A stretch of DNA of 64,000 nucleotides from a virus: the IMG/VR virus record IMGVR_UViG_3300009506_000003, positions 1 to 64,000 of that record; one strand, 5' to 3'. Of this stretch, positions 34,073-52,491 are shown in pieces. Every line of letters begins with the position of its first letter. The first letter of the stretch is position 1. The notes under the pieces are model-generated. The model was not told the origin of the DNA. It was given only the letters and a program-made list of their open reading frames with translations, and ran no database searches. Made by a program: the position numbers and the translations under genes.

Positions 34073-34495
34073 TCAATTCGCCGTGATAAGCATTCCCCCG
34101 CTCGGGATTCGGAAGATGTCCCCAGCTTCGACCGCCTTTGGTGAAGCCAGATCTCCGTGCACCACGTACCTCGCGTTCGTGGCGTCATACAGGAACCAGT
34201 AGGCAACCGTGCCCCAGCTCCCAGTAGCGGCAGGCGTCCACGTGAAAGAGACACCGTTGGTCTTGGTTGTCACGCCACCCCCGTCAGTGGAGGCAGCGGG
34301 GAATGTCGTGGCGTTGTTGGTTACGGTCAGGCGCCCGTAGCCTCCGCCTGAAGGCTCGGTGATTCCCGTACCGTCATCGCTGATCGGCGTAGTAGACAAC
34401 CCAAGCTGATAGCTGGCAGGGGTGTACCCTGCAATGGCTCCCGCCCCGAATACGAGGTCCAGTACCGTACGTTCGCCTACGTCGAATAGACTCAT
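34073..34495 (-). CDS. small fibre-type protein, paralogue B
   Basis: 140 residues; ATG 34495 overlaps the upstream stop (ATGA), with GGAGC upstream. It is the tandem paralogue of 33654-34043, sharing the ATGSWGT and PK-x5-GDI-x-x-P blocks. The N-terminal half differs: a Gly/Thr-rich loop replaces the Gly/Glu loop of the partner. Divergence in that half suggests different binding surfaces on a shared core; this is inference. Confidence 0.7.
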   Translation of the reverse strand: MSLFDVGERTVLDLVFGAGAIAGYTPASYQLGLSTTPISDDGTGITEPSGGGYGRLTVTNNATTFPAASTDGGGVTTKTNGVSFTWTPAATGSWGTVAYWFLYDATNARYVVHGDLASPKAVEAGDIFRIPSGGMLITAN

Positions 34496-37400
34496 GGCTG
34501 CGCTCCAAATGTCAAAGTGACGGGGGTGTTTGACGTCTCTGTGAACGCGGCATCGATGGCGATTCTGCCGGGGTCAACGTACCCCTTGATGTAGAAGGTT
34601 TGGTTGCGAGTCGGGTCCGGGTGGCCAGAGACTGACACAAACTGCCCGACCATCCCAGGCGTGAAGATGTCTCGCACTGGGGGAGCCCAGTCCCAGTTCA
34701 TCGCCAGCCCCACAACGTCCATGTAGATTGCTCGCAGTAGCTGCTCGGTAATCCCGGAGTTGTATTCGAAGGACGCCGCCAGGACCTGCTGCTTCAAATG
34801 AACAGGCCGTACAATCCTGTAGGCCAGATCACTGTCCGTACCGAAGACGGGGTCGGTACCGTCTGCAAGGCGAACCACCAGACTGGTAGGATCGAGAGTG
34901 GGAGGCAGCGGAGCAATGTGCCAGCGCTCGTTGCTTCTCGTAGCGGTGGCTCCGCTGTCGTTGCGAACCTCCACAGAGGTCGGATCGACGTAGGACGTGA
35001 TGATGGCGGACTTCTGCTCGGCATACGCCCAGAAGTCATCGAACACGATAGTGCGGCCCACCATGGAAGGGGACATCCCAGTCAGCCCCGTCACTACCCC
35101 AGTGGTCCAATTCACCGTACAGTTCAAACCTCGAAGGTTTGAGTCGCGATGCACAATAACATACTCGCCCTGGCTGGCTGGCAAGGTGGGGTTCGCGCGG
35201 TCTTTCTCGATGACTACGTGGTCTCCTACTCTCACGCTGGCTTTGACGAAGTCCGCTGCAGCAGAGGACACCACGTTGTCAGCAACTACCAAGTCGGTGC
35301 CGCGGTAGAGGGTTGGGGCTTCTCGTCGGAGAATGGTGCAGATGAGGTTGCTGCCGAACTGAAACTGCTTCGTCACGAGGTGATGCTTCGGGGTCCCCAT
35401 GCGAGTCACAGGTAGGGTGTAGTACGTGTAGTCGTCTGGGTCTGGGCCAAACGCTGACCACCCAAGATGAAGAGTGTTCTCGTCGATAACCTCTTCGATC
35501 TCGTACATCCCGGGCTGCGTAGGCGTAGAGCCCTCCTGGCCTTGCAAGATCACCAGGATGTCTCCTTCGATGGGAGACCATGGCCGAAGGGTAGCGGACT
35601 CCCCACCGTACTGCCTGCCGCGGACCATGTCCAAGTCCCAGCCCGTCGCAGACGATGCAAGGATGTTGGTGCCTACGATCTCGTAGCTGACTCCAGATTG
35701 AAGAGCGGTGAACGGGGTCCCTACGACTTTGACAATCGTGTAGTCTGACGTGTCCAGAATGTCGACTGAGAGGATCTCGTAGTCCCCCACGTAGGAACCA
35801 CTCAGCACTCGAAGAGTGTCTCCCGCCCGGGGAGGGTGAGGGATCATCGTGGTGATGTAGCCACTCATTCTGAAGAGAGAAGGATTGCCCAGAGCTCCGG
35901 CCTGCCCTCCAGTTCCGGACGTTCTCGGTTGGGATGTCGATTCCGAAGTGACGACATCCTGAAGCATACGAGGCGTGCGTGTATTAAACGGCGCCGAACC
36001 AGCGTTCCACAGCAACCCGCCCTGCTGATTGTAGTCGTTGGACCGCGCGGTGGCTTCCAGTCCCCAGATGTTGTCGTAGAACTTCATCACCTCCCGGCCG
36101 CCAAGAACGTCCGTCAGCTCGATGTCGTCCACGAGCTCGAGGAGGGTAGAGGTCACGACTTTTGTGTAGGCAGGTTTGATCTGCCTCACAAAGTCTACTG
36201 CGAACTGCACGTCGTCTGCGTTGAAGGTGCGGCTGTCGATAAAGACCTTGAACGTGAAGTACTTCAAGATCTCCAATCCCTGGAAGGTGCGCTGCCACCA
36301 GAGAGGGTCCTTCACATAGTCGACGACATCCACACCCTTGGAGATGGGCGCGAAGCGGACAATCTTGTCTCCGATGGCGTAGGGCCGCTGGGTGGCCGGA
36401 TTGGTCTCCAACCCCACTGCTGTCGAGTAGAAGTAGACCCTACGGAACCCCAACCTCTTTCCGGTTACCTCGTCCGTATCTTCAATCAGGATGCGGCCGA
36501 GAGGGTTCCCTTCCGTGTCTACGGTGAAGCTGTCCTGCACTTCAAGGACCACACCGGTCTCTTCGGAGAATGGAAGGCCCAAAAGAATCTGCAGCCCCAA
36601 CCGGATGTTCGAGATGGTAGGGCCGTTCGTGTAGGCGAAGAAGAGACCTTTCACTGCACTGAGGTAAGGAGCTCGAGTTCTACTCTCAGTGAGGTCATCC
36701 TTCAACAACCCGACCAGCCTGCCAAAGTTGCCTTCAACCACAGCCGAGTTGTCGAAGATGGCGCACTCCATCCAGAACTTCTCAGGGGAAGGCTCAGAGA
36801 TCGAGAAGAGATCACTGACAAACGTCAGCATCCCGTCCTCAATGACATAGTCGAGGTTCTCACGAAGAGCTACAGGGGGATCGATGACGCTCTCTTGCAG
36901 GACGGGCGCACTGACCAGCTCGTCTGGCACCCTCGCCTTTTGGTTGTGGATGATCTCTTTCGCTTTGAAGGTGACGCCATACTGAGAGAACGGACGGGTG
37001 TTGAGGTTGATGCCTGTGGGCATGAAGCTGATGAGAGTCTCAGCCGCCGCAGCGATGTCCTCATTGCTCGCCTGACCAGGGACAATCCTCAAGTCCAGAA
37101 CGATCTTCCTGAAGAGGGCCCGGTCGAAGTTCCCTCCGGTCTTGCCTCTCTCAACCCATTCGATTCCAGGATTGGCTGAGTCCGCCCCAGACGCGAGACG
37201 GTTCTCAATCGTGACCGCGTCTTCTGAAAGGAAACCTCGAATGCGATAGACCCCGGGATTATCCCCGTTGAGAATCTCGAGCCAGCCACCCACAGAAGTG
37301 GGGCGTATATTCTTCAATCCGCTGACTGTGACTAGCCCTCCAGACTCCACCAACGTAGCGTCGGAGCCGCTGTTCACCACCGGGTCGAGAACAGCGCCTG

Positions 37401-38952
37401 AAAACTCGAAGCCGATCCTGTCTCGGTCTGCCCCCACCACCTGGCCGTACACGTCTGTGGTCAGCCCAAGGTCTGCCCGAGAGACTTCAAACACCACCAG
37501 GTCTCCTGGGCTGACCCCCGCGTCCTCGAACCCAGATCCTGGAACATGCAGAAGATGCGGGATCCTCCACGACGCCCCAACCACACCTTCAGGCATGGCT
37601 TCTTCGTCTGTGATGATGAGGGAGTAGTCCCTCCCTACCGTGATACTCACAGTTGACCCGCCGGTGAAGGCAGGCACGGGCCCGCCCGGCGGGTCGGCCG
37701 GGTACGCAACAGTCAGGTCGTAGGACCCAATCGCCTTCAGGAGATAGTCACCTGCATCGTCCCCATCGTTGATGGTCAGTTTGTCCCCTACCTGAGACGC
37801 TCCGAAGTCCACGCCTGTAGGGTCGATGATCACGTACGAGAGACCAGTCTCCGCGGTAGGGAAGACAGTCCCACTGAGGACGAGGGCGGTCTCCAACATC
37901 GCGTTCAGGATTTGATAGTCACCAGCGTAGGTGCCGGAAAGGATTCGAAGGATGTGAGACGAAGTCACGCCATCCGTTTGGAAGGTGGCATTGGCATCAT
38001 CGAACCGCGCGGTGGCGGCCAGCGTTTCGCCGTCGGTCTGGTCTCCAGAAAGAGGAAGCAGTTTGGCAATGGTATTGCTGGAAGGAACTGCGCTGAGACC
38101 AGTGAGGTTCTCTACTACCAGCGTCTCGTTCGCCACTCGACTGATCGTGTGGGCTTCCCCATTGACCACCACCACGCGGCCCTTAGCCCCGTAGTTGCCG
38201 CCCAGGTTGGTGAAGTCGGTCTTGTCTCCGTCTCCTACTCGGCCTTTTCGAACCCGGAAAACGGAAGTCATGCCTGTGCCGGGGACGGTACCGAGTGGGC
38301 CTGTCTCTCCTCCCACGCCTGCATCGGTTTTGCCCGCGATGATTCTCTGATCGAGGGCAGTGCTCACGTCGGTACGCATGCTGACGCTTTGCCAGCGCCG
38401 CTGGAACGTTGGCTGGATCGTGTCCAAAGACTTGTTGAGGTTCACACCCCAGATCTTCATCAGGTCGGTACCGATGACCTGAATAGCTGACGACCAGATA
38501 GAAGTGATCTTTTCCCGGTCCTCGACGAGCTTCCAAAAGTCGGAGATGTAGCTCCACAAGAAGTGGGCGTCGGGAATGATGTTCTCCCCGCAAGGAACTC
38601 GGGAGATCTGAATGTTGACGGTACAGGTGATCGGGTCGCTGTCGAGCTCTCCGTCGTTGACGATGAGCTGAACAACGTACACGCCTGTCTTGTCAGGAAC
38701 GAAAGAGACCGCAGTGGAGTTCGGACGGATGTCTTTGAAGCCCGCCCCTTCGACCTCGCTACCAATGGGTACTTGGGTGAACTTCCAATGGTGCGTTACG
38801 GTCTCCCCATCCGGGTCGTAGCTCTTGCGACCGTCGAGCTGGATGATGGACCCGACCAACGTGTCAATCTTGGTTGTCGCCAATACGGCTACCGGCTTGG
38901 CGTTGGAGCTGCCAGTTACGCTCGTAGCGAATCTTCTAGTCGGGGTACTCAC
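34492..38952 (-). CDS. giant modular tail protein with PKD-like domain and repeated beta-modules
   Basis: 1486 residues; start GTG 38952 overlaps the upstream stop (TAGTG). Residues 10-120 resemble a PKD/Ig-like domain (LDGRKSYDPDGETVTHHWKF, then GVYVVQLIVNDGELDSDP). The rest holds at least five copies of a roughly 60-residue module with the signature GDxLxIxxGxxAGxYxI. One example is GGWLEILNGDNPGVYRIRGF, near 37229-37300. The central part (about 650-1000) may be a tail-tip or baseplate hub domain. Such long beta-rich proteins form tail spikes, fibres or baseplate arms. No specific homologue is claimed. Confidence 0.72.
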   Translation of the reverse strand: MSTPTRRFATSVTGSSNAKPVAVLATTKIDTLVGSIIQLDGRKSYDPDGETVTHHWKFTQVPIGSEVEGAGFKDIRPNSTAVSFVPDKTGVYVVQLIVNDGELDSDPITCTVNIQISRVPCGENIIPDAHFLWSYISDFWKLVEDREKITSIWSSAIQVIGTDLMKIWGVNLNKSLDTIQPTFQRRWQSVSMRTDVSTALDQRIIAGKTDAGVGGETGPLGTVPGTGMTSVFRVRKGRVGDGDKTDFTNLGGNYGAKGRVVVVNGEAHTISRVANETLVVENLTGLSAVPSSNTIAKLLPLSGDQTDGETLAATARFDDANATFQTDGVTSSHILRILSGTYAGDYQILNAMLETALVLSGTVFPTAETGLSYVIIDPTGVDFGASQVGDKLTINDGDDAGDYLLKAIGSYDLTVAYPADPPGGPVPAFTGGSTVSITVGRDYSLIITDEEAMPEGVVGASWRIPHLLHVPGSGFEDAGVSPGDLVVFEVSRADLGLTTDVYGQVVGADRDRIGFEFSGAVLDPVVNSGSDATLVESGGLVTVSGLKNIRPTSVGGWLEILNGDNPGVYRIRGFLSEDAVTIENRLASGADSANPGIEWVERGKTGGNFDRALFRKIVLDLRIVPGQASNEDIAAAAETLISFMPTGINLNTRPFSQYGVTFKAKEIIHNQKARVPDELVSAPVLQESVIDPPVALRENLDYVIEDGMLTFVSDLFSISEPSPEKFWMECAIFDNSAVVEGNFGRLVGLLKDDLTESRTRAPYLSAVKGLFFAYTNGPTISNIRLGLQILLGLPFSEETGVVLEVQDSFTVDTEGNPLGRILIEDTDEVTGKRLGFRRVYFYSTAVGLETNPATQRPYAIGDKIVRFAPISKGVDVVDYVKDPLWWQRTFQGLEILKYFTFKVFIDSRTFNADDVQFAVDFVRQIKPAYTKVVTSTLLELVDDIELTDVLGGREVMKFYDNIWGLEATARSNDYNQQGGLLWNAGSAPFNTRTPRMLQDVVTSESTSQPRTSGTGGQAGALGNPSLFRMSGYITTMIPHPPRAGDTLRVLSGSYVGDYEILSVDILDTSDYTIVKVVGTPFTALQSGVSYEIVGTNILASSATGWDLDMVRGRQYGGESATLRPWSPIEGDILVILQGQEGSTPTQPGMYEIEEVIDENTLHLGWSAFGPDPDDYTYYTLPVTRMGTPKHHLVTKQFQFGSNLICTILRREAPTLYRGTDLVVADNVVSSAAADFVKASVRVGDHVVIEKDRANPTLPASQGEYVIVHRDSNLRGLNCTVNWTTGVVTGLTGMSPSMVGRTIVFDDFWAYAEQKSAIITSYVDPTSVEVRNDSGATATRSNERWHIAPLPPTLDPTSLVVRLADGTDPVFGTDSDLAYRIVRPVHLKQQVLAASFEYNSGITEQLLRAIYMDVVGLAMNWDWAPPVRDIFTPGMVGQFVSVSGHPDPTRNQTFYIKGYVDPGRIAIDAAFTETSNTPVTLTFGAQP

Positions 38953-41900
38953 TACACATCCTCAGCTTCTATGATGACGTTGAATGCTTGGTCGAACTGG
39001 CTCAGTGCCTCCTCCTCGTCCAAAACCCTCCTGACGTCTAACTCGAACCCGTCGGAGATCCCGTACTTCAAGAGGTCCCAGTGAGAGACGCTCAACACCT
39101 CCGAGTCCACGTGCCCAATCCGTATCCTAGCATTGGTGCTTGAGGTTGTGGGCTCGAAACCCGGCTCGTCTATCTCAAGAATCACGTCCTCATCGATTCT
39201 CAAGACCACCTTGCCGCCCACCGTCTTCTCAAAACGATAGAGATGGAACTTGGTCCAGTCGACCTGGGCGTAGGTGCCCGCCACATCCTCATCCCCAGCT
39301 CTGATGGCATCAAGGTTCTCTTTGAATCCATCGGCAGTGGAGTCGAACTTCTTGTGCTGGAGTGCCACGATCTTGCCCAAGGGGGGACCGGCCTCAGCAA
39401 AGTTGATGCTCCACAAGAAAGTGCCATCGAAGATCTGGACTACCACACCCGTGAACGCGCGAATCGGGTTCACCCCCTCCGTCCAGCGGGTCGACCCTTC
39501 ACTGACCGTGTACGATGCAACTCGAGATCTCCACTCGACGTGCCATCCTGAGTCAGACTGAAGAACGCCAATCAACTCCCTATCGAACCTCTGGTTGAGG
39601 AGTCCCACGTCCGAGATAATCGCGAACGTCGGGTCGACTATCTCCTCCCACTCGATCTCGGGGTTTCCACTGTCGGCCCCAGATGCGGAGGGATTCTCGA
39701 TGGTGACCTCGTACCCAGTGATGTACCCGCTGATCCGGTAGATGCCTGGATGGTCCCCATTGAGGATTCGAAGGTAGTTGCCCACTGACTCAGCAGACAT
39801 GCCCGTCAGTCCAGATACGGAGACTACCCCGGCTGCTTCTTCGATACTCGCATCGGCCCCCTGGTTGGACTCTTGAGAATCCGTCCCAGGCACCACGGTG
39901 CCACCAACACTGGGGGCCCACGATGGTGTAGCAGACACCAGGTCTCTCCAGTCCGTCACCTGCCCCAAGTAGGAATAGCGGATCCTCCGAACGAACATCT
40001 CAGCTTCAGCGTCCACCGCATTCGCGTTGTGCAAGAACCCGATTCCGGGACCCGGAAGAGCTGCGGCTGGAAGGTCTATCGCTAGCACCTCCACCACGAG
40101 ATCCTCCGTCAAGCCCTCGTCCGTCTCGATGATGTTGTAGAGCTTCACCCGGTCTCCGGGCTGGTAGATGAGACGGTACTGGCGCTCAGTGCCGAAGGAC
40201 TGTTGCCCGCCTTCATAGGATGACAAGAGCTCAGGGTTCGCAGAGTCTGTCAGGATGCCGACGTACTGCGTCCCAGCACTGTCCTGCAGCAAGGCAAACC
40301 GGACGTCATTTGTCCCGTCGCTGATGTAGACCTCGATGCCAGTAGAGGCTGCTCCCTCTTCTTGCCTGACCACGGAGCCAGAAAGCCAGAAGTCCAAAAC
40401 GATGGGCCCTGTGACTCGAGGCTCTATGCGGTGGTAGCCAATGCTCTCCGCGCCTTGGCGACGGGTGAGCTGCAAACCGAGAGGGCACACCCGTTGGTAC
40501 CCACCCCAGGTGCCAAACGAAGCCGGCAAGGGTAACCACGGGCTCGAGGCGTCCAGTGGAGCGCTCTCAGTGCCATCGTACTCTATCTGGTTGTTCGTTC
40601 TGATGATGGAGACGTGCCCGCCTGCGGGGATACCATTGGCAACAGCTCGACTCACCTCGTTGTGAAGGAAGACACCCTTCCAGCGGCTGACACTGGTGGC
40701 GGCCGTTTCAACACCATGCCCGAAAATGACCCACGGTTGAGGTGTGCGAATCTCCCAAGAGGGGACAGAACCGAAAGCGGATACGGTAGTCTCGATGAGC
40801 AGGCGGTCACTGTCCGCGAACTCATCTTTCACATACAGCTTCACCAAGTCGAGCTGGGGGTGCCACAGCAGCTTGAAGGTGTTCGAGCCATCAGGATTCA
40901 AAGCAGCGCCCACGTCCCAGTCAAAGGCTGTACTTGGAACCACTACCTGGGGCCCTGTGAGGCCCGCATCGTACAGCGCTACCGTGCGCCCGCCATCGTC
41001 GATGAACTTGACCACAACTCCAGAGTCGTTTGCATACAACCCGACCTGCACCCCGCTGAGGATGCCAGAGTAGGCCACCTCTGAAGCATTCAGCTTCAGG
41101 GTGAACTCGATCATCATGGGAGCGTCCGGATTGGCCGGTGCCTCGAGCCCACCCATACGGAGTACGGCCTCCTGATTGCTGCCGCCGGCGAGCTTGGAGA
41201 TCTTCAGGTAGTCCCCATCGAGCTCGAGCTCAGCCGGGTTGTTGGGGTGCCCAGACAGTGCTTCGAAGTGCATCGTGGGAAAGTCGAGGTCCTGTGGAAG
41301 CTCATCTCCCAGGTAGAACACCGGGCCGTTTCCCAGGTAGACGTTGACCTTTCCGCGGTCAACCTCAGAGTCCGGGTCCCGAAGACTGCACCGAAGGCTA
41401 GACCCAACCTTTGCAGTGGAGTTGTGCAAGGGAACGATGTTGGTGACAATGGCTGCTTCACTGAAAACAGAGAAGCTCCACACCACACTTGAACCCTCGC
41501 CTCCTGGCCCAGAGGTCTCCACCCTCCAGTAGTAGAGCGACCCCGCGGACAGTGTTCCTGGATCATATGTCAGGCCGGTCTGGAATCCCTTGAACGTTCC
41601 ACCGACGCCGGCGAGGACATCAGCTTCCACCTGCCCGAAGTACACGTTGTACCCGTCGATGTGAGGGTCGCCTCCGACCGGAGCCGCCCATTCCAGTTGC
41701 TGCGTGGACGGGATTCCTGTGGACCCGTTCGGGGGGTCCACGATAGTTGGCGGGTCCGGAGCGGCCGGGGTCAACACGGTGAAGCTCCAGATGGCTCCCT
41801 TGGTGGTACCACCTTCCCCGACAGTATCGATTCTCCAATAGTGCGTCAGGCCGAAGCTCAGCGTGCCTGGATCGTAGGTTGTTCCTGCTTGATTCCCTTT

Positions 41901-42779
41901 GAAGGTTCCGCCCACTCCGGCGTCGACGTTGGCGTAGGACGTTCCGAAGTAGACATCGTAGCTGGATACAGGAGAGCCTCCAGATGGAGGATCCCACTCG
42001 AGCTGTTGTGTCTCCGGCCTCCCAGTGGCTCCATTGAGCGGATCAACGATCACCGCCTGATTGGGAGGCGGTGTAGGCATGAGAGAGACGATAGCTCCTG
42101 TGACGAAGTCGATGATGGTGCCAAAGCCCGTTATGTCGGAGTACGTGCTCCTTCCAGGGACGATGCTGGCGTCAATGCGGTCTCCGACTATGAGGCGCTG
42201 CTGGTCATTGTGAACCTGCCCACCACCTGTGTAGTTGAAGTACCTCTTGCCGACGAGGCTGAAGCTGTTGCCCGGATCTGTTGCGGAGCTCCAGGCATCC
42301 GTGCCGTCGTTGTGGGCCATAGCCGCGACGTACAGCTCTCCAGCCATAGATGGAGTGCCCGCTGTACCCGACACAACCGTGGCGGGGTTAGACCCAGGGT
42401 TGCCTACATAGCTGGCAGTCAGATCGGCTCCTCCTGCCGCCCAGACGCCTGAGTACTGAGCGAAGCATGCTGCTAAAGGAGCTCCGACGTCTTTGTAGAG
42501 GTACGCCGAAGAAGACACCCCTGGTCCAACAACCTCACCAATCCAAATCTCTACGGTTGGCTTTCTCTCCCCAGATCCGGCATAGGGGTTGTTGACCTCA
42601 ATGAGCTTCGACCAGTTGACCCCGGTCTGACTGATGCTGGAGAGGCCACAGTTGTGCCAGCTCGTGATGCACGTGATGATGGTCCGACCCACTACTGGCG
42701 TGAAGCCCATGCCCACAAACCAGGAGGTGGCCGTGGAGTTGTGGGCCGCGTTCGTCTGATGTGTCCGAACTATTGCCAC
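38952..42779 (-). CDS. giant tail protein with two fibronectin-III repeats and lectin-like domains
   Basis: 1275 residues; start GTG 42779 has AGGAGGG about ten bases upstream. After a 230-residue N-terminal beta domain there are two tandem FN3-type repeats (about 240-340 and 341-440): QQLEWDPPSGGSPVSSYDVY and QQLEWAAPVGGDPHIDGYNV, with YWRI/YWRV strands. Next come concanavalin/LamG-like segments (about 480-720 and 780-950) with FTLKLNASEVAYSGI-type strands. Later there is a copy of the GNYLRILNGDHPGIYRISGY module, and a last lectin-like domain. FN3 and lectin-like domains in phage tails often bind cell-surface sugars. Confidence 0.75.
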   Translation of the reverse strand: MAIVRTHQTNAAHNSTATSWFVGMGFTPVVGRTIITCITSWHNCGLSSISQTGVNWSKLIEVNNPYAGSGERKPTVEIWIGEVVGPGVSSSAYLYKDVGAPLAACFAQYSGVWAAGGADLTASYVGNPGSNPATVVSGTAGTPSMAGELYVAAMAHNDGTDAWSSATDPGNSFSLVGKRYFNYTGGGQVHNDQQRLIVGDRIDASIVPGRSTYSDITGFGTIIDFVTGAIVSLMPTPPPNQAVIVDPLNGATGRPETQQLEWDPPSGGSPVSSYDVYFGTSYANVDAGVGGTFKGNQAGTTYDPGTLSFGLTHYWRIDTVGEGGTTKGAIWSFTVLTPAAPDPPTIVDPPNGSTGIPSTQQLEWAAPVGGDPHIDGYNVYFGQVEADVLAGVGGTFKGFQTGLTYDPGTLSAGSLYYWRVETSGPGGEGSSVVWSFSVFSEAAIVTNIVPLHNSTAKVGSSLRCSLRDPDSEVDRGKVNVYLGNGPVFYLGDELPQDLDFPTMHFEALSGHPNNPAELELDGDYLKISKLAGGSNQEAVLRMGGLEAPANPDAPMMIEFTLKLNASEVAYSGILSGVQVGLYANDSGVVVKFIDDGGRTVALYDAGLTGPQVVVPSTAFDWDVGAALNPDGSNTFKLLWHPQLDLVKLYVKDEFADSDRLLIETTVSAFGSVPSWEIRTPQPWVIFGHGVETAATSVSRWKGVFLHNEVSRAVANGIPAGGHVSIIRTNNQIEYDGTESAPLDASSPWLPLPASFGTWGGYQRVCPLGLQLTRRQGAESIGYHRIEPRVTGPIVLDFWLSGSVVRQEEGAASTGIEVYISDGTNDVRFALLQDSAGTQYVGILTDSANPELLSSYEGGQQSFGTERQYRLIYQPGDRVKLYNIIETDEGLTEDLVVEVLAIDLPAAALPGPGIGFLHNANAVDAEAEMFVRRIRYSYLGQVTDWRDLVSATPSWAPSVGGTVVPGTDSQESNQGADASIEEAAGVVSVSGLTGMSAESVGNYLRILNGDHPGIYRISGYITGYEVTIENPSASGADSGNPEIEWEEIVDPTFAIISDVGLLNQRFDRELIGVLQSDSGWHVEWRSRVASYTVSEGSTRWTEGVNPIRAFTGVVVQIFDGTFLWSINFAEAGPPLGKIVALQHKKFDSTADGFKENLDAIRAGDEDVAGTYAQVDWTKFHLYRFEKTVGGKVVLRIDEDVILEIDEPGFEPTTSSTNARIRIGHVDSEVLSVSHWDLLKYGISDGFELDVRRVLDEEEALSQFDQAFNVIIEAEDV

Positions 42780-42801
42780 CTACCAGCCCTCCTGTGGTAG
42801 G
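42779..42801. promoter_or_regulatory. inverted repeat between divergent starts
   Basis: CCTACCA (42779-42785) and TGGTAGG (42795-42801) form a perfect 7-bp inverted repeat. It covers the last base of the leftward GTG start and the ribosome site of that gene (AGGAGGG, on the minus strand, lies in the centre). It ends nine bases before the ATG of the rightward gene at 42810. It could be an operator or an mRNA hairpin that limits translation of the leftward gene. Confidence 0.45.
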
Positions 42802-42809
42802 GTTTGAGC

Positions 42810-43196: not shown

Positions 43197-46100
43197 CGAA
43201 AAAGGCAGAAATCCTGCCGGTTCCGTTATACGGCACTTCAAGTGTGCCGCCTAGCCTGTTTTCGGTCCGATTCACCACCAGGTTCCTGTCGATGTCGTGC
43301 GTGATGACTGCGATGGTGATGGGGTGCTCGATAGAGGTCGCGTCACGACGCGCGATGAACGCCTCCAAATCTGACACCTCGAGCTCGCCTTCGGCTCCCA
43401 GGTTGTTGATGTAGTTCTCGATGAGCGGCCCCACGTCGGACTCCGAAGGACCTCCTCGATAGAGTAGCTGTGTGAACACGTAGGACGGCAAGAAGTGCCT
43501 GCCCAGCGGGTTCGCGTTGATGGGGCGCTCCTGGTCAGACCGGAGTAGATCGTGGACCAGCTTGGCCGTGGTTGAGGTCTCGTAGACCACCTTGAGGTTG
43601 CGACCACTGACTTCGGTCATGTTCTCTGGGCTGTCACTGTTGCCGACTGGCAAGAACCTCCGGTCGAAGCTGAGCGACACGCGCTCGAACGGAGAGAACG
43701 TCAGGTTGTTGTTGTCCACGACGTATGTGTAGCCGTCGACATCCAACCCCGACTTCACCACCAGGCGGGTGAGCCTCCCCAAGTTGAACTCATCTCCCGA
43801 CCCGAGAGACTCCACGTTGATGTCGACGTAGTAGAATGACCCGTCGAAGTTGTCTTCCATCTCCGTCGAGCTCACACGGAAGACCCCTGGACGCAGGATG
43901 CGGAAGGGGGCCATGTCTCCAGGGTTCAGCAGGCCGTTGTCACTTTCGAACGGGCCTACCGTAAGCATCGTTCTGGACCCGTGCAGCCCTCCCCATATCT
44001 TGTAGGGGTGGTTGGACCCTGTAGCAGGGAAACGGTTCTGCGAGTTGTTCACGATGGTGACCACGTTCGCGGCCACGCTCGCGATAGGGTACACGCCGGC
44101 AGACGGGCCTGCAGCGATCTCAACCTGGTCTCCGGGTTGCACCCCCAGAGAGAGGAAGTTCACCGTGAGGTCTTGGAGCTGCGTGAAGCTGATGATTCCA
44201 CCCACGCCGGCAAGATCGATGTCCTCCCTACGGGTAGCCACTTCTGTGACAGCAGCCTGCTTCGGGACGGTCTTGTAGATCTTGAAAGCGTGACCAACGT
44301 TCTCTTCACCCACCGTGTTGATCCACGAGAACAGGCCAGTGCCGAAGGGGATGATGTCCCCGCCCACATAGTCCACCTGCTCGTAGGTGCCGGGGTCCAT
44401 GTCGATCTCGACTTGGTTTGCTGCCGGCGTCGACTTGATCTCGTAGGTGCCATCGATGTCACCGCGAGTCGACTCGAAGATGGTGATGTAGTTGCCTATC
44501 TGAGTGCCAGGGTTGTCCGTGGCATCTTCCAGCGTGACGGAAGATGTCCCTGGAGTCAGGGTCGCATCTCGCAAAGGAGTGGCGAGCTCCTGATGGATGA
44601 TCGACTCCGTGCTCCCAGTCATCAGCGCGTTCAGCCGAAGAGTGTTTGGGCCAATGACCTCCTCGATGACGTACTCTCCCTCGTCCGGACCCTCATCGAT
44701 GTAGAGAAGCTGACCCGCAAGAGGAAACGCCTCATCCATTGCTTCAAAGTCGATGAGAGAGTTCGAAGGAACTGACACTCGGTTGGACCCAGCCACTGTT
44801 CTCAGCCCAGCGGGCTTGCCGTAGATGCCAATGCTCTCGAAAGTTTCCCCGGTTGTGCGCCGGAAGGGGAGCTGTTCATTCACCTCGAGGAGGTCTCCAG
44901 GTTGAATCTCCAGCTCATACACGCCAGGACCAGTGGGATCCGTGAGCTCAATGATGGACTCGTACTCCCCTGCCACTGCTCCGGGTTTGCTCCGTGCCAA
45001 ACGTATGTCCCTACTCCTGCTTGAGGACTCACCAGCAGACGGGAAGATCGAGTACCCGTCCACCTCAGAGAAGTGGTACTCCTTCGGGGTACCAGATTCC
45101 TCCTCGTTGAGTCTCCCACCCTGCAACCCGGTGGCCACCGTGACAGTGGTGGGCTCCTGGAAGTAGAGCCGAGCCACGCCAGAAGAAGGCAGACCAACAG
45201 AGTAGTGAACCGCCGAGGCGAGCTCGGTGAAGTGGGTACCTCCGTTGTTCTCGGTAGCAACCTCGATGTAGTGGTTGGATGGGAGACCATCCCCCGTACC
45301 CACTCTGGTGACAGTGTATCGACCAGCGTTGTCGGTGTTGAAAATGTTGAGTCTGAATCCTGGAACAACTCCCTCTGACAAGAAGTTCACGTTGTCGTCG
45401 AACAGCCGGATGTAGTACCCGCCTGTTCCAACCTGCGTCTCCCCCGTGAAGCTCTCTTGTTGAGACCCTTCTGCTCTGTTGGAGAAGACTCCCAGCGCGC
45501 GGGCGTCGATATTGTCCCCGTAGGGGATCTTGATTCCGGTCGGTTGAGAGCTGGAGTCGAGAAGCTCGATCTCCTTCACCCGCACCATCGGGCGCTCCAC
45601 GCCAGAGAACGCACGGTACACCGTGAAATCCAGCGAAGTGGCAGTGTTCAAGGGAGGATTGTCGAGCGTCACGGAAGTACCAGACACTGCCACGATAGTG
45701 AACTGACCTGCATCGTCTCCTTCCAGGATCTCAAGGGTGTCACCAGCCTCGACTCCTGCGAGCAGGAAGTTTGTGGACCCGCTGACGGACACAAACTCGA
45801 GGCCTGCCACAGTGGAAAGATCGTCGCCGGCGAAGATAGAACCCAGAGGGATCTTGACTACCCGAGGGGTCACCAGGTCGACGTCGAGCTCGTCTGCGAT
45901 GCGGTATCGAAGGCCGCTTCCATCCCCCAAACCTGAAGGAGAGTGGGTCTTGGTCAAGTCTCGATCCAAAACGAGAGTGTCACCTGTGTCCAACCAATCC
46001 AGAATCCTACGGATGGTGTAGATGCCCGCGTCGTCTCCTGTCTCGATGACAACAGAGTCTCCAACGCTGGCTCCCTTGACTCTGAGGTCGGCCCCGGATT

Positions 46101-48390
46101 TGAAGCCTGCTGCTATAACTCGGCTCCCGTCCCGATCTCGTATTCTGTCCTTGATCGAGGTCTTCTCCACGATCCGGAAGTCCGTATCGAAGCTGGTTGG
46201 GTTGCTGCCCAACACGTAGGCGACGAGCGGATTCTCCTGGTTCGTCAAGTCAACCTTGACCCGAGTGACGGGTATAGGGATGGCAGCCCCTGCTCCGGTG
46301 TAGTACTCCTCCCCGAGAATCTCCAAGATCTCGAGAAGACCCTGGCTTCCTCCTCCACTAGGAAGGATTTGGATGAACCGTCCTACATCTTCGTCCGTGG
46401 GCACCCACGGTGCGAACAGAGTGTAGATCGTGTAGACCAGTCCGGTACCGCCAACAAATGAAGCGGCGATCTTCAGCTCGGTCTCAGACACGACGTCGAG
46501 GATCTCATAGAGGCCTTCATCCCCTGCCGCGGGATTGATCAGTAAGGTCATTCCAGGATGCACGCCATCCGTCTCGAACGTGGCGTCCAAGTCGGTGAAC
46601 GTCCCAGTGCCGGCAGAGGTCACTCCATCATTCTGGTCTCCTGACAAAGCCAGAAGATCACCCTCTATTTTCTTGACCAGGATGTGGTCTGTGACGGCTC
46701 CACCAAACCTGTCAACACCAGGCCGGCAGGCTTCGAGCGTCACAGCTTCAGTGACCTGAACGAACTCGTCCTCTCGTTCCCCAAAGGATTCGAGGTCTAC
46801 TCCGAAATGCAGAGGCTCAGCGTCCAACACACCTTCGAGCACCGTATCCCGCTCGATGGGAGGTCCCGCGCGGACGAAGACATCCACGGTACCGCCCAAG
46901 TGAACCTCACTTGAGTCGACTGTGATCGTGCCCGCCGAAGTGGTGGGCTGAAGGATACCTCCAGGAATGTCCGAGATCGTGATACCGGACACCGGGTTTG
47001 ACAACAAGAAGGTCTTGCTCACAAGAGAGCCGGAGATCTTTGGCTCGACCTCGATCCACTGGGTCCCCGTTCGAGTAATGATGTGCTCCGAAACAGTTCC
47101 GGTGCCCACATCAGCGTAGAGCACCTTGTCCCCAATCTTGACTCCGGTCTCCGTGAAGGTGTTCTTCACCACCCCTGCCGCCGTCATGATGGCGTCGGTC
47201 AGGGCGGCCAGATCTATCTGAACACTGTCATTAAGAGGGTCGATGATTTGGTAGTCCAGATCTGACCCCAGAGTCGAGAACGTTCCAGAGACCAACAACT
47301 GGTAGTTGGCCACCGTCGTGATCGGATAGTCACCTGCGTCCGGCCCTTCTTTGACCCGAAGGATCATGGAGGTGGTGACACCATCGTCAGAAAATCGAGC
47401 CGTGGCGTCGTCGAAGATGTTGGTAGCCGGAGTCGTTGCTCCATGGGTCGTAGCTACCGAGAGGGGAAAGTTGCCCGTGCTCCCCAGGAAGAATGCGTAG
47501 GGGGCTGGGGTCTCAGTTTCACCCTTCAGGATGTCCCGGTTCATCTCTGGGTCGCCGTACCCGATGACCTGAATGAGTCGGATGCTCTCGAACACGTCCA
47601 GCATGCGAGCGGTAATGCCGCGCAGAGTGACCAGAGACTTCTCCGTCAGACTGTTCTCGACTCGCTCGATGAACTCCTCTGTGGTCTCTTTGTCATCCCC
47701 CTCGTCAAAGGGTGCTTTGTTGGTCACCTTGACCACGGAAGACATCTCTTCGATGCCTACCAGGGTGTTCGGATCGATGTTGTAGCTATCACCCTCCTCT
47801 TCTGCTCTGACAATGATGTCGAAGTAGTAGAGGTTGTTCTCCAGGTTGAAGAGCATGTTGTCGGCCGAGATGGCTTGGTTCTCGACCGGGAAGAACCGGT
47901 GACCAGCTCCGTCAAATACGGCGTTGTTGGGTGTAACGGAGGCACCTTGAGGAGCAGAGTAGTAGAGACGAGCGACTCCCACCGCAACCCCACCTTGTCG
48001 CCGGCGCACGAAGAAGTTGGCGCCCAGAGCGTCAGCTTCTCGCTCGTTCAGGATGGAAGGATCTTGAAGAGACTGGTTGTTTGAGACTTGCTGTATCTGC
48101 CGGCGGAACGCCTCGAGCAGAATCTGCATGATCTTGACGGCGTAGTCATCGATTGGCTCCCCGTCCTGCAAGACCATCTGCGGGAACTCGACTGCGAGCC
48201 TCCCAATGATGAACTCCCGAATGGGAGTGTTGTAGGGGTCCGGGCCAAGACGAGAAAGCAACGGCTTGATGACGTTGTTGTAGAAGGAGGACCCGCTGGT
48301 GGTGTCGACGGTGTAGTCAAAGATCTGCATCCTCTCCTGGATGAAGAGGGTCAGGTCTTCAGTCTCTGTGATTCCAGTCAAACTCGACAT
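43156..48390 (-). CDS. baseplate wedge protein, gp6/J-like, with many repeated beta-modules
   Basis: 1744 residues; ATG 48390 after GAGGTG. The first 290 residues resemble the baseplate J / T4 gp6 family: LNEREADALGANFFVRRRQG, then ARLYYSAPQGASVTPNNAVF and TTEEFIERVENSLTEKSLVT followed by LRGITARML. This family forms the wedge ring of contractile tails. The remaining 1400 residues are an extension containing about nine GDxLxIxxGxxAGxYxI modules. Examples are GDTLEILEGDDAGQFTIVAV (near 45692-45760) and GDQVEIAAGPSAGVYPIASV. The last 150 residues return to non-repeat sequence. The protein is far larger than typical gp6/J. Confidence 0.8.
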   Translation of the reverse strand: MSSLTGITETEDLTLFIQERMQIFDYTVDTTSGSSFYNNVIKPLLSRLGPDPYNTPIREFIIGRLAVEFPQMVLQDGEPIDDYAVKIMQILLEAFRRQIQQVSNNQSLQDPSILNEREADALGANFFVRRRQGGVAVGVARLYYSAPQGASVTPNNAVFDGAGHRFFPVENQAISADNMLFNLENNLYYFDIIVRAEEEGDSYNIDPNTLVGIEEMSSVVKVTNKAPFDEGDDKETTEEFIERVENSLTEKSLVTLRGITARMLDVFESIRLIQVIGYGDPEMNRDILKGETETPAPYAFFLGSTGNFPLSVATTHGATTPATNIFDDATARFSDDGVTTSMILRVKEGPDAGDYPITTVANYQLLVSGTFSTLGSDLDYQIIDPLNDSVQIDLAALTDAIMTAAGVVKNTFTETGVKIGDKVLYADVGTGTVSEHIITRTGTQWIEVEPKISGSLVSKTFLLSNPVSGITISDIPGGILQPTTSAGTITVDSSEVHLGGTVDVFVRAGPPIERDTVLEGVLDAEPLHFGVDLESFGEREDEFVQVTEAVTLEACRPGVDRFGGAVTDHILVKKIEGDLLALSGDQNDGVTSAGTGTFTDLDATFETDGVHPGMTLLINPAAGDEGLYEILDVVSETELKIAASFVGGTGLVYTIYTLFAPWVPTDEDVGRFIQILPSGGGSQGLLEILEILGEEYYTGAGAAIPIPVTRVKVDLTNQENPLVAYVLGSNPTSFDTDFRIVEKTSIKDRIRDRDGSRVIAAGFKSGADLRVKGASVGDSVVIETGDDAGIYTIRRILDWLDTGDTLVLDRDLTKTHSPSGLGDGSGLRYRIADELDVDLVTPRVVKIPLGSIFAGDDLSTVAGLEFVSVSGSTNFLLAGVEAGDTLEILEGDDAGQFTIVAVSGTSVTLDNPPLNTATSLDFTVYRAFSGVERPMVRVKEIELLDSSSQPTGIKIPYGDNIDARALGVFSNRAEGSQQESFTGETQVGTGGYYIRLFDDNVNFLSEGVVPGFRLNIFNTDNAGRYTVTRVGTGDGLPSNHYIEVATENNGGTHFTELASAVHYSVGLPSSGVARLYFQEPTTVTVATGLQGGRLNEEESGTPKEYHFSEVDGYSIFPSAGESSSRSRDIRLARSKPGAVAGEYESIIELTDPTGPGVYELEIQPGDLLEVNEQLPFRRTTGETFESIGIYGKPAGLRTVAGSNRVSVPSNSLIDFEAMDEAFPLAGQLLYIDEGPDEGEYVIEEVIGPNTLRLNALMTGSTESIIHQELATPLRDATLTPGTSSVTLEDATDNPGTQIGNYITIFESTRGDIDGTYEIKSTPAANQVEIDMDPGTYEQVDYVGGDIIPFGTGLFSWINTVGEENVGHAFKIYKTVPKQAAVTEVATRREDIDLAGVGGIISFTQLQDLTVNFLSLGVQPGDQVEIAAGPSAGVYPIASVAANVVTIVNNSQNRFPATGSNHPYKIWGGLHGSRTMLTVGPFESDNGLLNPGDMAPFRILRPGVFRVSSTEMEDNFDGSFYYVDINVESLGSGDEFNLGRLTRLVVKSGLDVDGYTYVVDNNNLTFSPFERVSLSFDRRFLPVGNSDSPENMTEVSGRNLKVVYETSTTAKLVHDLLRSDQERPINANPLGRHFLPSYVFTQLLYRGGPSESDVGPLIENYINNLGAEGELEVSDLEAFIARRDATSIEHPITIAVITHDIDRNLVVNRTENRLGGTLEVPYNGTGRISAFFATLGEGLIVQKQS

Positions 48391-48398
48391 AGCTCACC

Positions 48399-49055
48399 TC
48401 ATAGCACCAAAGCCGATACGGCGTCTGCTCCCGCGAGACTCTGGATGAGCACCCGAGCTCGAGCCTGCATCTGCGCTTCAAAGATGTCCAGGTCCACCAA
48501 GCTGGCGCTCAAAAGGCGCTCGCTCAGAGGTAGTGCTGGAACGTTTATTTGGGCCGCCCGAATCTGCGCCGAGGTTGTATCTATTGCTCGGGTGATGGAC
48601 GCCACGACCGGCTGCATGTCCCTGCTCGTGGAGATTTGACCTACGATGTTTTGCAGCCCTCCACCGCGCTGGGGGTTGAAGATGTCGCTCTGGGGAGACT
48701 GAAGGATCCATTTCATGAAGAGCTGAACCAGCTTCAGGACTCCATCGACCTTCCTCGTCTTGTCTCCCAGGGAGAACTCTACCTTGGAAGACTCGATGGT
48801 GCGCGTGAACCGGCTGCTCAGCACCTCTATCGTAGACATGCGACTGGTGCCTTCGGGGAGCTGAGCCCAGATCGTGCTCTTGTTGACGATCATGAACTCA
48901 GGGGAGGGCACCTGGTTGATGAGAACCGTCTCAGCAGTAGAGAGGTCTTCACCCTTCACGATGATGGTGGGCGGACTGATGCCCTCCACAAATCCAGGGA
49001 TCCCCAACACCGGCAGGATGTCACGAAAACGGATGACTTGTAGCTGATACGACAT
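48399..49055 (-). CDS. baseplate protein with gp25-like C-terminal domain
   Basis: 218 residues. ATG 49055 overlaps the upstream stop and has GGAGGAG seven bases before it; a GTG one codon earlier is too close. Residues 1-105 look like an added beta (IPT/TIG-like) domain (ISPPTIIVKGEDLSTAETVL). Residues 110-218 fit the gp25/W family: LFMKWILQSPQSDIFNPQRG, then a helix spaced with GQISTSRDMQPVVASITRAI and a final beta segment. gp25-like proteins link baseplate to sheath in contractile tails. The gene sits directly before the gp6/J-like gene, the usual order. Confidence 0.7.
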   Translation of the reverse strand: MSYQLQVIRFRDILPVLGIPGFVEGISPPTIIVKGEDLSTAETVLINQVPSPEFMIVNKSTIWAQLPEGTSRMSTIEVLSSRFTRTIESSKVEFSLGDKTRKVDGVLKLVQLFMKWILQSPQSDIFNPQRGGGLQNIVGQISTSRDMQPVVASITRAIDTTSAQIRAAQINVPALPLSERLLSASLVDLDIFEAQMQARARVLIQSLAGADAVSALVL

Positions 49056-49498
49056 CACTTCTCCTCCGGTGCGGCAATGTCAGCTTTGTCAACGTATTCG
49101 TCCATCTCCGCTACCTCAAGAGGTTTCAGCGCCTTTATCTCCTCTATGACACCGTCCAGGGTGTTCACGATGGCCAGTACTCGGTCCAGCTTCGTAGGCC
49201 GCTGAGTGTCCACCCCACTAGGGAGCGTAGCCCTTTTGATAGGCTCTTTGCCCGCCTCCTCGTCCTGCTCTGGGTTGTAGGAGTACGGGTCAAACTTGGC
49301 CTTGTTGGACCGCTCGCTTTCCCCGTTGCGTTCAATCTGGTCCCCCATCAACTGCTCGAGCGTGACGGTGGCCATGGCGGCGTTGGCTTCCGCGCTCCGG
49401 ATGAACGAGAAAGCGTCTGCCACGGCGGCCCGCAATCGCTTCCCTGGAGTCGGCTCCAGGTTCTCGTCAGCGGTTATTTGGAGGTCGTCTTCACTCAT
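49055..49498 (-). CDS. small late protein, charged, unknown function
   Basis: 147 residues; ATG 49498 overlaps the upstream stop (ATGA). Helical segments at 20-55 (LRAAVADAFSFIRSAEANAAM) and 100-135 surround a polar middle. No motif is recognised. Tight coupling to the baseplate genes suggests a small baseplate or assembly protein. Confidence 0.65.
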   Translation of the reverse strand: MSEDDLQITADENLEPTPGKRLRAAVADAFSFIRSAEANAAMATVTLEQLMGDQIERNGESERSNKAKFDPYSYNPEQDEEAGKEPIKRATLPSGVDTQRPTKLDRVLAIVNTLDGVIEEIKALKPLEVAEMDEYVDKADIAAPEEK

Positions 49499-52491
49499 TC
49501 AAAGGGCATCTCCGGTTCGTCATCAATGTCACTGTAATCGAAATCGGCATCGGTTGTCGTTATCCGATCAGTGGCAATGTCTCTTTGGTCCAGAATGGCC
49601 GCACGAGTACGTGAGGGACGCGGCAAGTCGTTGACCACGTTTCTCGATGCAGACATGACCGCTCCACCGTAAGAGGCAGTCTCTTCGTTGGTGGCGAAGA
49701 ACTCGACCACCTTTCCCTGCTGCAGGAGCTCCATCGCCCTGTCGTACTTTCGCTCCCGTAGAGCGTCCAAAAAGCTGTCTACTGCAACGACGTCGGGCGC
49801 CTCATACCCAGACAGGATGCTCGCCAGGTCATCGGCGGCGTTGGGTATCTGGTATTCGTACTCGTTGGTCCTGCTGTAGTTGGTGGTCAAGATCGACAGC
49901 AGGTCTCCAACCATTCTTCGTGCTTGGTTCCGAGACGCAAGGAAGTTCCTGCCCGGTAGCACAGCCAGCGTCACTGCGTTGCTGATGGCATCGATACCCT
50001 CGTCGAACTTGTTCTTGCGAAGCAGGTTCGGGGAGGACACAAACGTCTTGAGTCGCGCATTCAGCGCTTCGTACGACTTGGCCGCCGCACTCTTGATCTC
50101 AAATCCAGCATGCTCGACGTTGGAGGGGACACCAGTCTCTAAGATCAACCTGGTGGAATCCTGTACCTCTTCGATGACGTACTCAGTGGGGTTTCCCACC
50201 ACTCTCAGCAAGTCGGTAGGAACCACGCCTTTGAACTGCAGCTTCGACCCGAGCTTGTCTACCGCCTCAAACTGAGGAATCGAGCTGTAGACGACCCCCG
50301 AGGGAAGACCGAGCTCAGAAGGAGAAGAGGTCACTTCAAGAGAGGTTCCTGGCCCGGAGTCCGTCAAGGAGATCTTCACCTGCTCCCGGAAGATCCGAAA
50401 CGGAATGTTCTCCAGTTTGGAAGGGAAAGCCCCCTCTTCCACCTCAACTACCTCAGAGCTGATCACGGAAGTGATATGGTAGAGGCCTGCCCACGGACCT
50501 GACAGCAACTCTACCTGGTCTCCAGGCTGAACTCCGGCTTCCACGACATCCTCCCCCACCAACGCAATCCTGGAGACGGCTGTGGAGGTCTGAGCGCTGT
50601 TCCCGATCAGGAGCTCAGTGGTCACTACCTCACCCACGAGCCCAGAGATCGAACCTATCCTGCCAGCAAGCTCGGAAGCGGAGAGCGTGTCTGCGTCGTC
50701 GGTGTCGCCCTCGTAGAACCCCAGAACGATGTGAGCTGATGCTTCAACTAGGCCTGCAGAGCCCACTGGATCTGGGATGTTCAGAAACCGTCCTGTGATT
50801 TGGGCGAAAGGGTTCACCCTAGACCTGATGCGCAAGGCTATCTTCCCGTTGAACGTCGTTGGGAAGAGGTGCCAGTTCAAAGTGGCTCCGGGATTTGTTG
50901 CAGGGAACGGACCGGTCTCCGCCTCGATGTCTCCAACAATAGCGCTGGCGCTCCTGACACCCAAGCTGAGCTCGGCTGTCTTGACCGCCGGCCCCACTTG
51001 CACTCTGTGACCTGCCGCCGGGGCGTTGGTCAAAGCAGGCAGCACGTCAAACACTGCGTTTGATATGTTGCCGTATAGTGTAGGGGAGCCCCCAAACGAA
51101 GGTGTCATCCCACGAGGGTCGATAGTGGCGTAGTCGGAGCTCTCCACCGAAAGGATCTCGAACCTGTTGCCTGCGCCGTCTTTGATGTACCCGCCCACGT
51201 GGTCCGAAGTGAACCCAACAGCTAGCTGACCCCCTGCTCCCCATGTGGGGCAATAGACCTGACTCGTAGCAGGCACCCAAGACCCCGCCAGTAGGTACTG
51301 CAGCAGGTACAAGTCGGTGATGAATCTCCCCTGAAAGTCTGACGGGGCTGTCACCAAAGAGTCTGGGAAAAAGACGGGGCATCCGACATGCTTGAAGCTC
51401 AGCTCGGGCAACGTGGTCACAATGTGAGTCGCAGTAGAAGTGCCCAAAGCAGTGCCGTCGTAGGTGCTTGGATCGACACAGACGTGCAGGTACTTGTTGT
51501 CGGTCGTGATGGGAAATGATTCCGGCGCGCGGCCCGCGATGAATGACCCTATGATGCCTGCCAAATCCAAAGAGGATGGGGATCCTCCGCTGACGGAGAT
51601 GTCCAAAGACCCAGAGACGGGAAACTTCCACGGGGCCGGACCTGTCAAAACCGACGCAGGAGTACCCGTACCAACTACCCTACCATAGTGCTTCATGGTG
51701 GAGGGGATAGGACGAGTAGGCCCTCGGAACTTGAACTCCGATGGGTCCTTGAAGGTGCCCAAGAGCTTCACAGCCACCTTGTTCGCCAGGGTCTGCAAGA
51801 AGAGGTCCCTGCTACCCTCCAGGTTTTCCGTATCGGTGGAGTCGGCCACCTGGTCTGAGGCATCTTTGAGACGCTGGCTGATTGAGGCCAGTACGGAGCT
51901 CGACACTCTCGACGGGATGTCCAACGAGAGAAAGCTGGTGAGAACGTCCTTCAAAGCCGTAGTCTGAGACAGGAGTCGAGCATGGACCGCGGTCAGCGTC
52001 TGCAGGTTCTTCTGGATGACCGTCCGAGCCTCCTCTCGAGGACGGACCATGATGTTCCCTCGCTCCCTGGAGACGACGTTCTTCTTCACCTTGGCGGCGA
52101 AAATGTCCATCTGGCGGATGAACCGCTCGGTCTCTGGTCTGTCTGACACGGAGGAGGCCGCGTCCAAGGATAGGATGGTTGTGCGCGCGTTGTTGAGAGT
52201 GGTCTCGTCCCGAATCGGGGAGCCTATTTTGCCCAAGTCCTCGAGCAGGACCATGATGTCTTCGAGGATCCTCACCTCCTCGTTGGTGATCGAGTTCAGG
52301 CGATTCCGAGCCATCTTGGCCAGGTAGAACACCGAATCCGTACTGAAGAGGAACGTGGTAGAGGCGAGCTCGAGGAGCTGATTGTACTCGGTCTGGGTGT
52401 TGAGCGTGCCACCTTCGACGCCAGGATTGATGCCGGCTCGAAAGAGCTTGGAGACTTCATTGAGGAGGTCTGCGTTGGTGTACTCTGCCAT
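49495..52491 (-). CDS. large baseplate-region protein, helical N-terminus, one beta-module copy
   Basis: 998 residues from ATG 52491, which overlaps the upstream stop; a GTG at 52515 would add eight residues. The N-terminal 270 residues are helical with coiled-coil stretches (ARTVIQKNLQTLTAVHARLL). The middle (about 270-640) is beta-rich. Near residue 665 lies a copy of the repeat module, GDQVELLSGPWAGLYHITSV (around 50460-50560), and the last 200 residues are helical again. The layout helix, beta, helix and the location next to gp25-like and gp6/J-like genes suggest a baseplate scaffold or wedge component. Confidence 0.7.
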   Translation of the reverse strand: MAEYTNADLLNEVSKLFRAGINPGVEGGTLNTQTEYNQLLELASTTFLFSTDSVFYLAKMARNRLNSITNEEVRILEDIMVLLEDLGKIGSPIRDETTLNNARTTILSLDAASSVSDRPETERFIRQMDIFAAKVKKNVVSRERGNIMVRPREEARTVIQKNLQTLTAVHARLLSQTTALKDVLTSFLSLDIPSRVSSSVLASISQRLKDASDQVADSTDTENLEGSRDLFLQTLANKVAVKLLGTFKDPSEFKFRGPTRPIPSTMKHYGRVVGTGTPASVLTGPAPWKFPVSGSLDISVSGGSPSSLDLAGIIGSFIAGRAPESFPITTDNKYLHVCVDPSTYDGTALGTSTATHIVTTLPELSFKHVGCPVFFPDSLVTAPSDFQGRFITDLYLLQYLLAGSWVPATSQVYCPTWGAGGQLAVGFTSDHVGGYIKDGAGNRFEILSVESSDYATIDPRGMTPSFGGSPTLYGNISNAVFDVLPALTNAPAAGHRVQVGPAVKTAELSLGVRSASAIVGDIEAETGPFPATNPGATLNWHLFPTTFNGKIALRIRSRVNPFAQITGRFLNIPDPVGSAGLVEASAHIVLGFYEGDTDDADTLSASELAGRIGSISGLVGEVVTTELLIGNSAQTSTAVSRIALVGEDVVEAGVQPGDQVELLSGPWAGLYHITSVISSEVVEVEEGAFPSKLENIPFRIFREQVKISLTDSGPGTSLEVTSSPSELGLPSGVVYSSIPQFEAVDKLGSKLQFKGVVPTDLLRVVGNPTEYVIEEVQDSTRLILETGVPSNVEHAGFEIKSAAAKSYEALNARLKTFVSSPNLLRKNKFDEGIDAISNAVTLAVLPGRNFLASRNQARRMVGDLLSILTTNYSRTNEYEYQIPNAADDLASILSGYEAPDVVAVDSFLDALRERKYDRAMELLQQGKVVEFFATNEETASYGGAVMSASRNVVNDLPRPSRTRAAILDQRDIATDRITTTDADFDYSDIDDEPEMPFE

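Follow-up and report, generated by a model that had tools for sequence, protein, structure and literature searches.

Several large tail proteins of one virus carry copies of the same short sequence unit, and it may be asked what this unit is and by what route it came to lie in more than one gene. The window analysed here is a stretch of 64,000 nucleotides from a 132,593-base virus record (IMGVR_UViG_3300009506_000003), in which the large module-bearing proteins, all on the minus strand, are p1486, p1275, the J-like p1744 (hereafter J) and p998/p1006 (Table 1). Computation establishes that the copies form one repeat family with one predicted fold, that this family stands outside the named ones, where it occurs, how its modules are added to a conserved core and that its lineage-specific copies are closest kin. 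On balance, this unnamed small beta-barrel of ~70 aa and five strands is probably a promiscuous, spreading add-on of tail proteins that is primarily structural.

The repeat and its host proteins

With the final profile HMM, which was iterated over related loci, 14 copies were found in the window at a domain E of ≤0.01 (eight in J, four in p1486 and one each in p1275 and p998/p1006), together with two or three degenerate ones (p1486-5 in Table 1, p1486 ~1129-1161 and p998/p1006 752-804), and the same search found the module in none of the other window ORFs of at least 150 aa. A preceding sequence-only reading had counted about 15 copies, a total that agrees with this result, as do the single copies that it placed in the 1275- and 998-residue proteins; its figure of about nine for the gp6/J-like protein is corrected to eight, and of the about five that it gave to the 1486-residue protein four reach the threshold and further ones are degenerate. 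Leave-one-out HMMs recovered each of 13 hand-cut copies, 12 of which scored 16-55 bits against a maximum of 13 bits over 2000 shuffles of the same segment, the sole marginal copy, J 1283-1354, doing no better than shuffles. The profile gave 108 matches on 215 real ORFs, 2 on the same ORFs reversed and 0 on the locally shuffled ones; this set contains the source sequences of the profile, and an independent check is given by the leave-one-out test.

The module is ~65-75 aa long, with the consensus xxFxDxxxxFxxxGVxxGDxLxIxxGxxAGxYxIxxVxxxtlxL...xxYxI, and no surface aromatic or polar residue is conserved across the copies. Because only glycines and buried-type hydrophobic or Tyr positions are conserved, the pattern suggests a scaffold rather than an enzyme, without one active or binding site common to the copies. 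Two segments between modules of J, window 46120-46410 (J ~661-757) and 46960-47215 (J ~392-475), resemble degenerate sub-threshold modules (VGRFIQIL..GG..GLLEIL; GVKIGDKVLYADVGTG).

The 219-aa protein adjoining p1744 matches a baseplate PHROG. In p1486, the PKD-like domain scores slightly below the Pfam cut-off, and homologues of the middle part are encoded by the gene following J in phage Arash and Vibrio phage D69. The listed 1006-aa start of p998/p1006 is an upstream GTG, and because relatives begin at residue 9 of this version, 998 aa is probably the correct length. Residues 1-440 of p1275 (window 38952-42779, minus), which are fn3-like, are missing from the homologue in the relative G002, and in that of G005 (L076:2941-8898) ~1240 residues precede the shared part; this tail protein is highly variable. 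On the minus strand, 33654-34043 and 34073-34495 of the window encode neighbouring 129- and 140-aa proteins that look like tandem paralogues and have the pattern SGxGYxR...TGSWGT...ASPK/APK in common.

Table 1. Module-bearing proteins of the window and their module copies (E values from the final profile HMM; relatives are G002, G003 and G005)
Feature	Coordinates	Strand	Evidence and remarks
p1744, J/gp6-like baseplate wedge protein, 1744 aa	43156..48390	-	phrog_6 E 9e-15; Pfam Baseplate_J 22.5 bits; core homology; conserved core at residues 1-306 and 1471-1744, modules in between
p1486, wedge-type protein, 1486 aa	34492..38952	-	N-terminal PKD-like domain
p1275, tail protein, 1275 aa	38952..42779	-	weak fn3
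p998, tail protein, 998 aa	49495..52491	-	1006-aa version runs to 52515
J-1 (J 318-385)	47236..47439	-	E 1e-16; absent from J of relatives; probable gain
J-2 (J 590-657)	46420..46623	-	E 5e-16; absent from relatives; gain and loss both candidates
J-3 (J 764-834)	45889..46101	-	E 6e-13; kept in relatives
J-4 (J 859-928)	45607..45816	-	E 1e-19; kept in relatives
J-5 (J 991-1067)	45190..45420	-	E 4e-13; kept in relatives
J-6 (J 1197-1263)	44602..44802	-	E 9e-6; divergent
J-7 (J 1281-1332)	44395..44550	-	E 0.003; marginal; leave-one-out no better than shuffles
J-8 (J 1399-1468)	43987..44196	-	E 7e-19; folded with AlphaFold2, mean pLDDT 82.5
p1486-1 (309-379)	37816..38028	-	E 8e-19; absent in relatives; probable gain; folded with AlphaFold2, mean pLDDT 81.1
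p1486-2 (379-432)	37657..37818	-	E 8e-7; resident in relatives, orthologues in L074-L076
p1486-3 (533-604)	37141..37356	-	E 6e-15; p1275 copy is sister submodule
p1486-4 (1034-1095)	35668..35853	-	E 3e-11; absent in relatives; probable gain
p1486-5 (~1222-1267)	35152..35289	-	16 bits, E 0.02; degenerate
p1275-1 (980-1048)	39636..39842	-	E 5e-13
p998/p1006-1 (643-712, 1006-aa numbering)	50380..50589	-	E 2e-18

Predicted fold and named families

AlphaFold2 was run on two copies that are 19% identical, with 62 module sequences for J-8 and 68 for p1486-1. Strands were placed at residues 7-12, 28-31, 38-45, 49-55 and 69-72 of the J-8 model and at residues 18-22, 38-41, 48-57, 60-64 and 77-80 of the p1486-1 model, with moderate confidence (pLDDT 81-82, pTM 0.63-0.69), and the two copies are predicted to form the same five-stranded small beta-barrel. 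One compact fold, which the sequence-only reading had named as a sign of a new domain family, is thereby borne out, by prediction, for two divergent copies with the same strand pattern. The seven-to-nine strands of an Ig sandwich were not seen in either copy, both having five. Foldseek searches of the PDB gave nothing below E 0.3 for either model; the lists of both held small barrels, for instance the barrel domain of pyruvate kinase and the N-terminal barrels of ATPases, and gpJ was not ranked among the matches of either. The leading fold matches in BFVD were mostly to tail fibre proteins, J-like baseplate proteins and proteins of the tail tip, with a probability of ~1.0 and TM of 0.6-0.74, at E values no better than 0.04.

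Scans of Pfam with 9 and then 68 module copies, and of NCBIfam with the 68, returned scattered sub-threshold matches only (best E in Pfam, 0.017), with no Pfam family common to more than two of the 68 copies and no match to the Pfam Ig, fn3, PKD, Big or BACON models. Matches to PHROGs were weak and fell on individual PHROGs of unknown function, and the repeat is not described in the literature searched. A FeoA identity was rejected on its single sub-threshold match, as was the endosialidase beta-barrel (PF12195), which across six records scored at best 12.2 bits (cut-off, 35), in a single one of them. The view that the repeat belongs to no named family is upheld against Pfam, NCBIfam, KOW (discussed below) and the endosialidase barrel.

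Placement on the J core and distribution

Homologues of J are 529 aa long in Arash and 561 aa in Vibrio phage D69, and then 855 aa (L087), 1592 aa and 1744 aa (window). Profile searches detected no module in the J proteins of Arash and D69 and only one weak module (E 2e-4) in that of L087, whereas the window J carries eight. Both parts of the core are recognisable in the L087 protein, and the N-terminal part in those of D69 and Arash. A landmark, IPGGI (IPGGI..GGxxDVYV), lies at residue 293 in L087, 394-395 in G002, G003 and G005, and 474 in the window, and the stretch from the N-terminal core to this landmark is ~80 residues longer in the window than in G002, G003 and G005, and in these ~100 residues longer than in L087. 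Because the homologues extend from a 529-aa protein with no module to the 1744-aa, eight-module protein of the window, the modules are, on this comparison, additions to a conserved wedge core. The J proteins of L075 (1033-1090) and L076 (1035-1092) have an insertion of ~59 aa (...VNRWIRLDSDGQFFRVIGL...) that is missing from the J of the window and G002; it resembles a module without the GxxAG loop and is another possible module-sized indel.

Among 24 records found via the DNA polymerase of the window, many of them fragments, 12 contain the module, in up to 12 copies that lie in large ORFs, again of these tail regions, and a search with the consensus module added nine IMG/VR records with 1-13 copies each, giving 21 further IMG/VR records. 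The proteins concerned are wedge proteins, the 1275- and 998-aa tail proteins and sheath proteins, the last in three phages (L089, a 1026-aa protein of G026 and gp236 of Salmonella phage Arash), and the module also occurs in the J-like protein of G027. Wide spread, the other sign named in the sequence-only reading, is thus seen in 21 further viral contigs, the Arash sheath protein and several types of tail protein, and this presence in unrelated phages and in several unrelated kinds of tail protein is promiscuous in the same way as that of Ig-like, fn3 and BACON domains. Three other searches were unproductive: tblastn with a consensus module against 50,697 phage records, tblastn with the ORFs of L086 and L088, and a scan for the consensus in contigs of bacteria and archaea (exact 8-mers, of low sensitivity). 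In G026, one module makes up a large part of a 160-aa ORF (L113 559-1038), which is possibly a nearly free-standing copy.

Gain, loss and probable movement between genes

None of the three close relatives, G002, G003 and G005, has J-1, J-2, p1486-1 or p1486-4, and in all three the flanks still align. J-1, p1486-1 and p1486-4, which lie in two genes, are closer to one another in the module tree (path 1.1-1.7) than to the next copy (2.5); this tree is weakly supported, the clade of these three private copies having an SH-aLRT of only 75. In pairwise comparison J-1, J-2 and p1486-4 each match p1486-1 best, and for nearly all remaining modules of the window the first match is an orthologue. By reading of the alignments, the outgroup positions favour gain of J-1, p1486-1 and p1486-4, which were probably acquired in the window phage, and p1486-1 appears, by alignment, to lie within p1486-2, the resident module, in its first loop. 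The view that all four were gains was withdrawn for J-2 after the outgroup comparison, in which this module is collinear with one in L077 and L080; J-2 may be an old copy that was lost in the relatives.

The private copies have only scattered short DNA identities among them, and recent DNA copying was rejected; no direct repeats border the four inserts. Given this low identity and the lack of flanking repeats, the copying of the private copies is not recent. p1486-3 forms a clade with p1275-1 (eight members, SH-aLRT 95), and the DNA pair singled out earlier (37229-37300 and 39718-39790), p1486 553-600 and p1275 998-1045, does represent one submodule, with a DNA likeness that is only moderate (BLAST at 7-base words finds one 8-base seed). 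Because orthologues of both members exist in G002, copying between these two genes is old. The sequence-only reading had called the unit self-spreading. Spreading is directly supported by three private copies that lie in two genes, are mutual closest kin and have empty sites in the relatives; the self is not borne out, as neither mobility machinery nor a target-site scar was found, and no module copy matched the endonuclease or splicing models of Pfam.

If there were no mobility at all, the modules would all go back by vertical descent to tandem copies that stood in an ancestral tail gene long ago, and the present pattern would reflect repeated losses. The collinearity of J-2 with a module of outgroup J proteins, the orthologues that most modules have in relatives and the J-core tree, in which the branching order of the window, G002 and G003+G005 is not settled, would fit such descent, which is nevertheless very improbable, because private copies of two genes are closest to each other and not to neighbours or orthologues, the J cores of L087-, Arash- and D69-type phages have no module or one weak one, and the module is also found in sheath genes.

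Origin and role of the module

Capture from cells of KOW/SH3-like domains of the SPT5/NusG/L24 type, from which the modules would have diverged, is suggested by a PDB profile search topped by SPT5 KOW domains (E 2e-4 and 1e-3) and by weak FeoA, KOW and SH3_KIN17 matches. However, this likeness is confined to ~16-38 residues at a single hairpin, the KOW model of Pfam (PF00467), which matches in all 14 control genomes, has no match at E≤10 in any of six records, and the best Foldseek PDB matches include no KOW structure for J-8 and only low-scoring ribosomal chains for p1486-1, which makes such an origin highly unlikely. It is also rather unlikely that the modules bind carbohydrates or receptors and mainly provide weak, multivalent attachment to the surface of the host: although tail proteins carry them in tandem, one copy weakly matches the endosialidase beta-barrel family (E 0.026, with one Foldseek match to that barrel), and glycan binding has been proposed for the BACON repeats of gut phage tails and for Ig-like domains (PMC6949934, PMC9230969), they lack conserved surface aromatic or polar residues, the endosialidase model stays below its cut-off in all six records, and many copies lie in wedge and sheath proteins, not in receptor-binding tips.

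In the structural reading favoured here, large, mostly contractile-tailed phages would use the barrel as a promiscuous add-on of tail proteins. Modules would enter sites, presumably at the surface, of wedge proteins (J/gp6-like and p1486-like) and sheath proteins, and would duplicate and move between tail genes, putatively by rare DNA recombination. They would primarily lengthen and stiffen the outer surface of the baseplate and tail, and may also offer exchangeable docking faces to neighbours, fibres or host glycans in the fashion of Ig-like domains.

The only match of the profile in lambda is gpJ 474-519 (E 0.0015), which overlaps the start of the 483-569 insertion, an inserted beta-sandwich/OB domain in HDIV of this tail hub protein (PMC10721106, PMC11101478). 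With hhalign, the module profile and a 15-member gpJ profile gave probabilities of 55.6 and 28.7 over only ~38 columns. A bolder proposal, which we regard as possible though doubtful, is that the unnamed family spreads inside a phage genome between wedge, sheath and hub genes by entering loops, including those of its own copies, that it is the main source of baseplate-protein enlargement in large environmental phages, and that the OB insertion of gpJ is a distant member.

A family model would account for one unannotated cause of very long baseplate and sheath proteins in large phages and would annotate parts of many 'hypothetical' tail proteins. The locus also provides a traceable example of a structural domain moving between genes inside one phage lineage, and the gpJ lead may link insertions in contractile and non-contractile tail hubs.

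Comparison with known systems

KOW/SH3-like domains (SPT5, L24) and the module both have a GDxVxVxxGxxxG hairpin, but the KOW model is negative and the matching fold is not significant. The gpJ HDIV insertion is likewise a beta domain inserted into a tail protein and has the motif PGDxxEI...AG in common with the module; unlike the module, it is present as a single copy per gpJ and not as a string. BACON repeats, which in crAss-like and other gut phages are tied to tail proteins and have spread by duplication and transfer (PMC6949934), are unrelated in sequence (no Pfam BACON match), and the module, unlike them, is spread over several wedge and sheath proteins. The extra domains of phage sheaths are for the most part Ig-like and face outward from the tube (PMC9230969). 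Phage Ig-like domains, including fn3 and PKD, are, like the module, promiscuous small beta domains that lie off the core of conserved tail proteins and are more frequent in large phages (PMC9230969 for the sheath), whereas the predicted five-stranded small barrel and its motif differ from theirs. By analogy, the module, although apparently unnamed, is of a familiar general kind, the promiscuous tail decoration domain, and is best read as a tail-decoration or spacer domain akin to the Ig-like or BACON domains of phages, with another fold.
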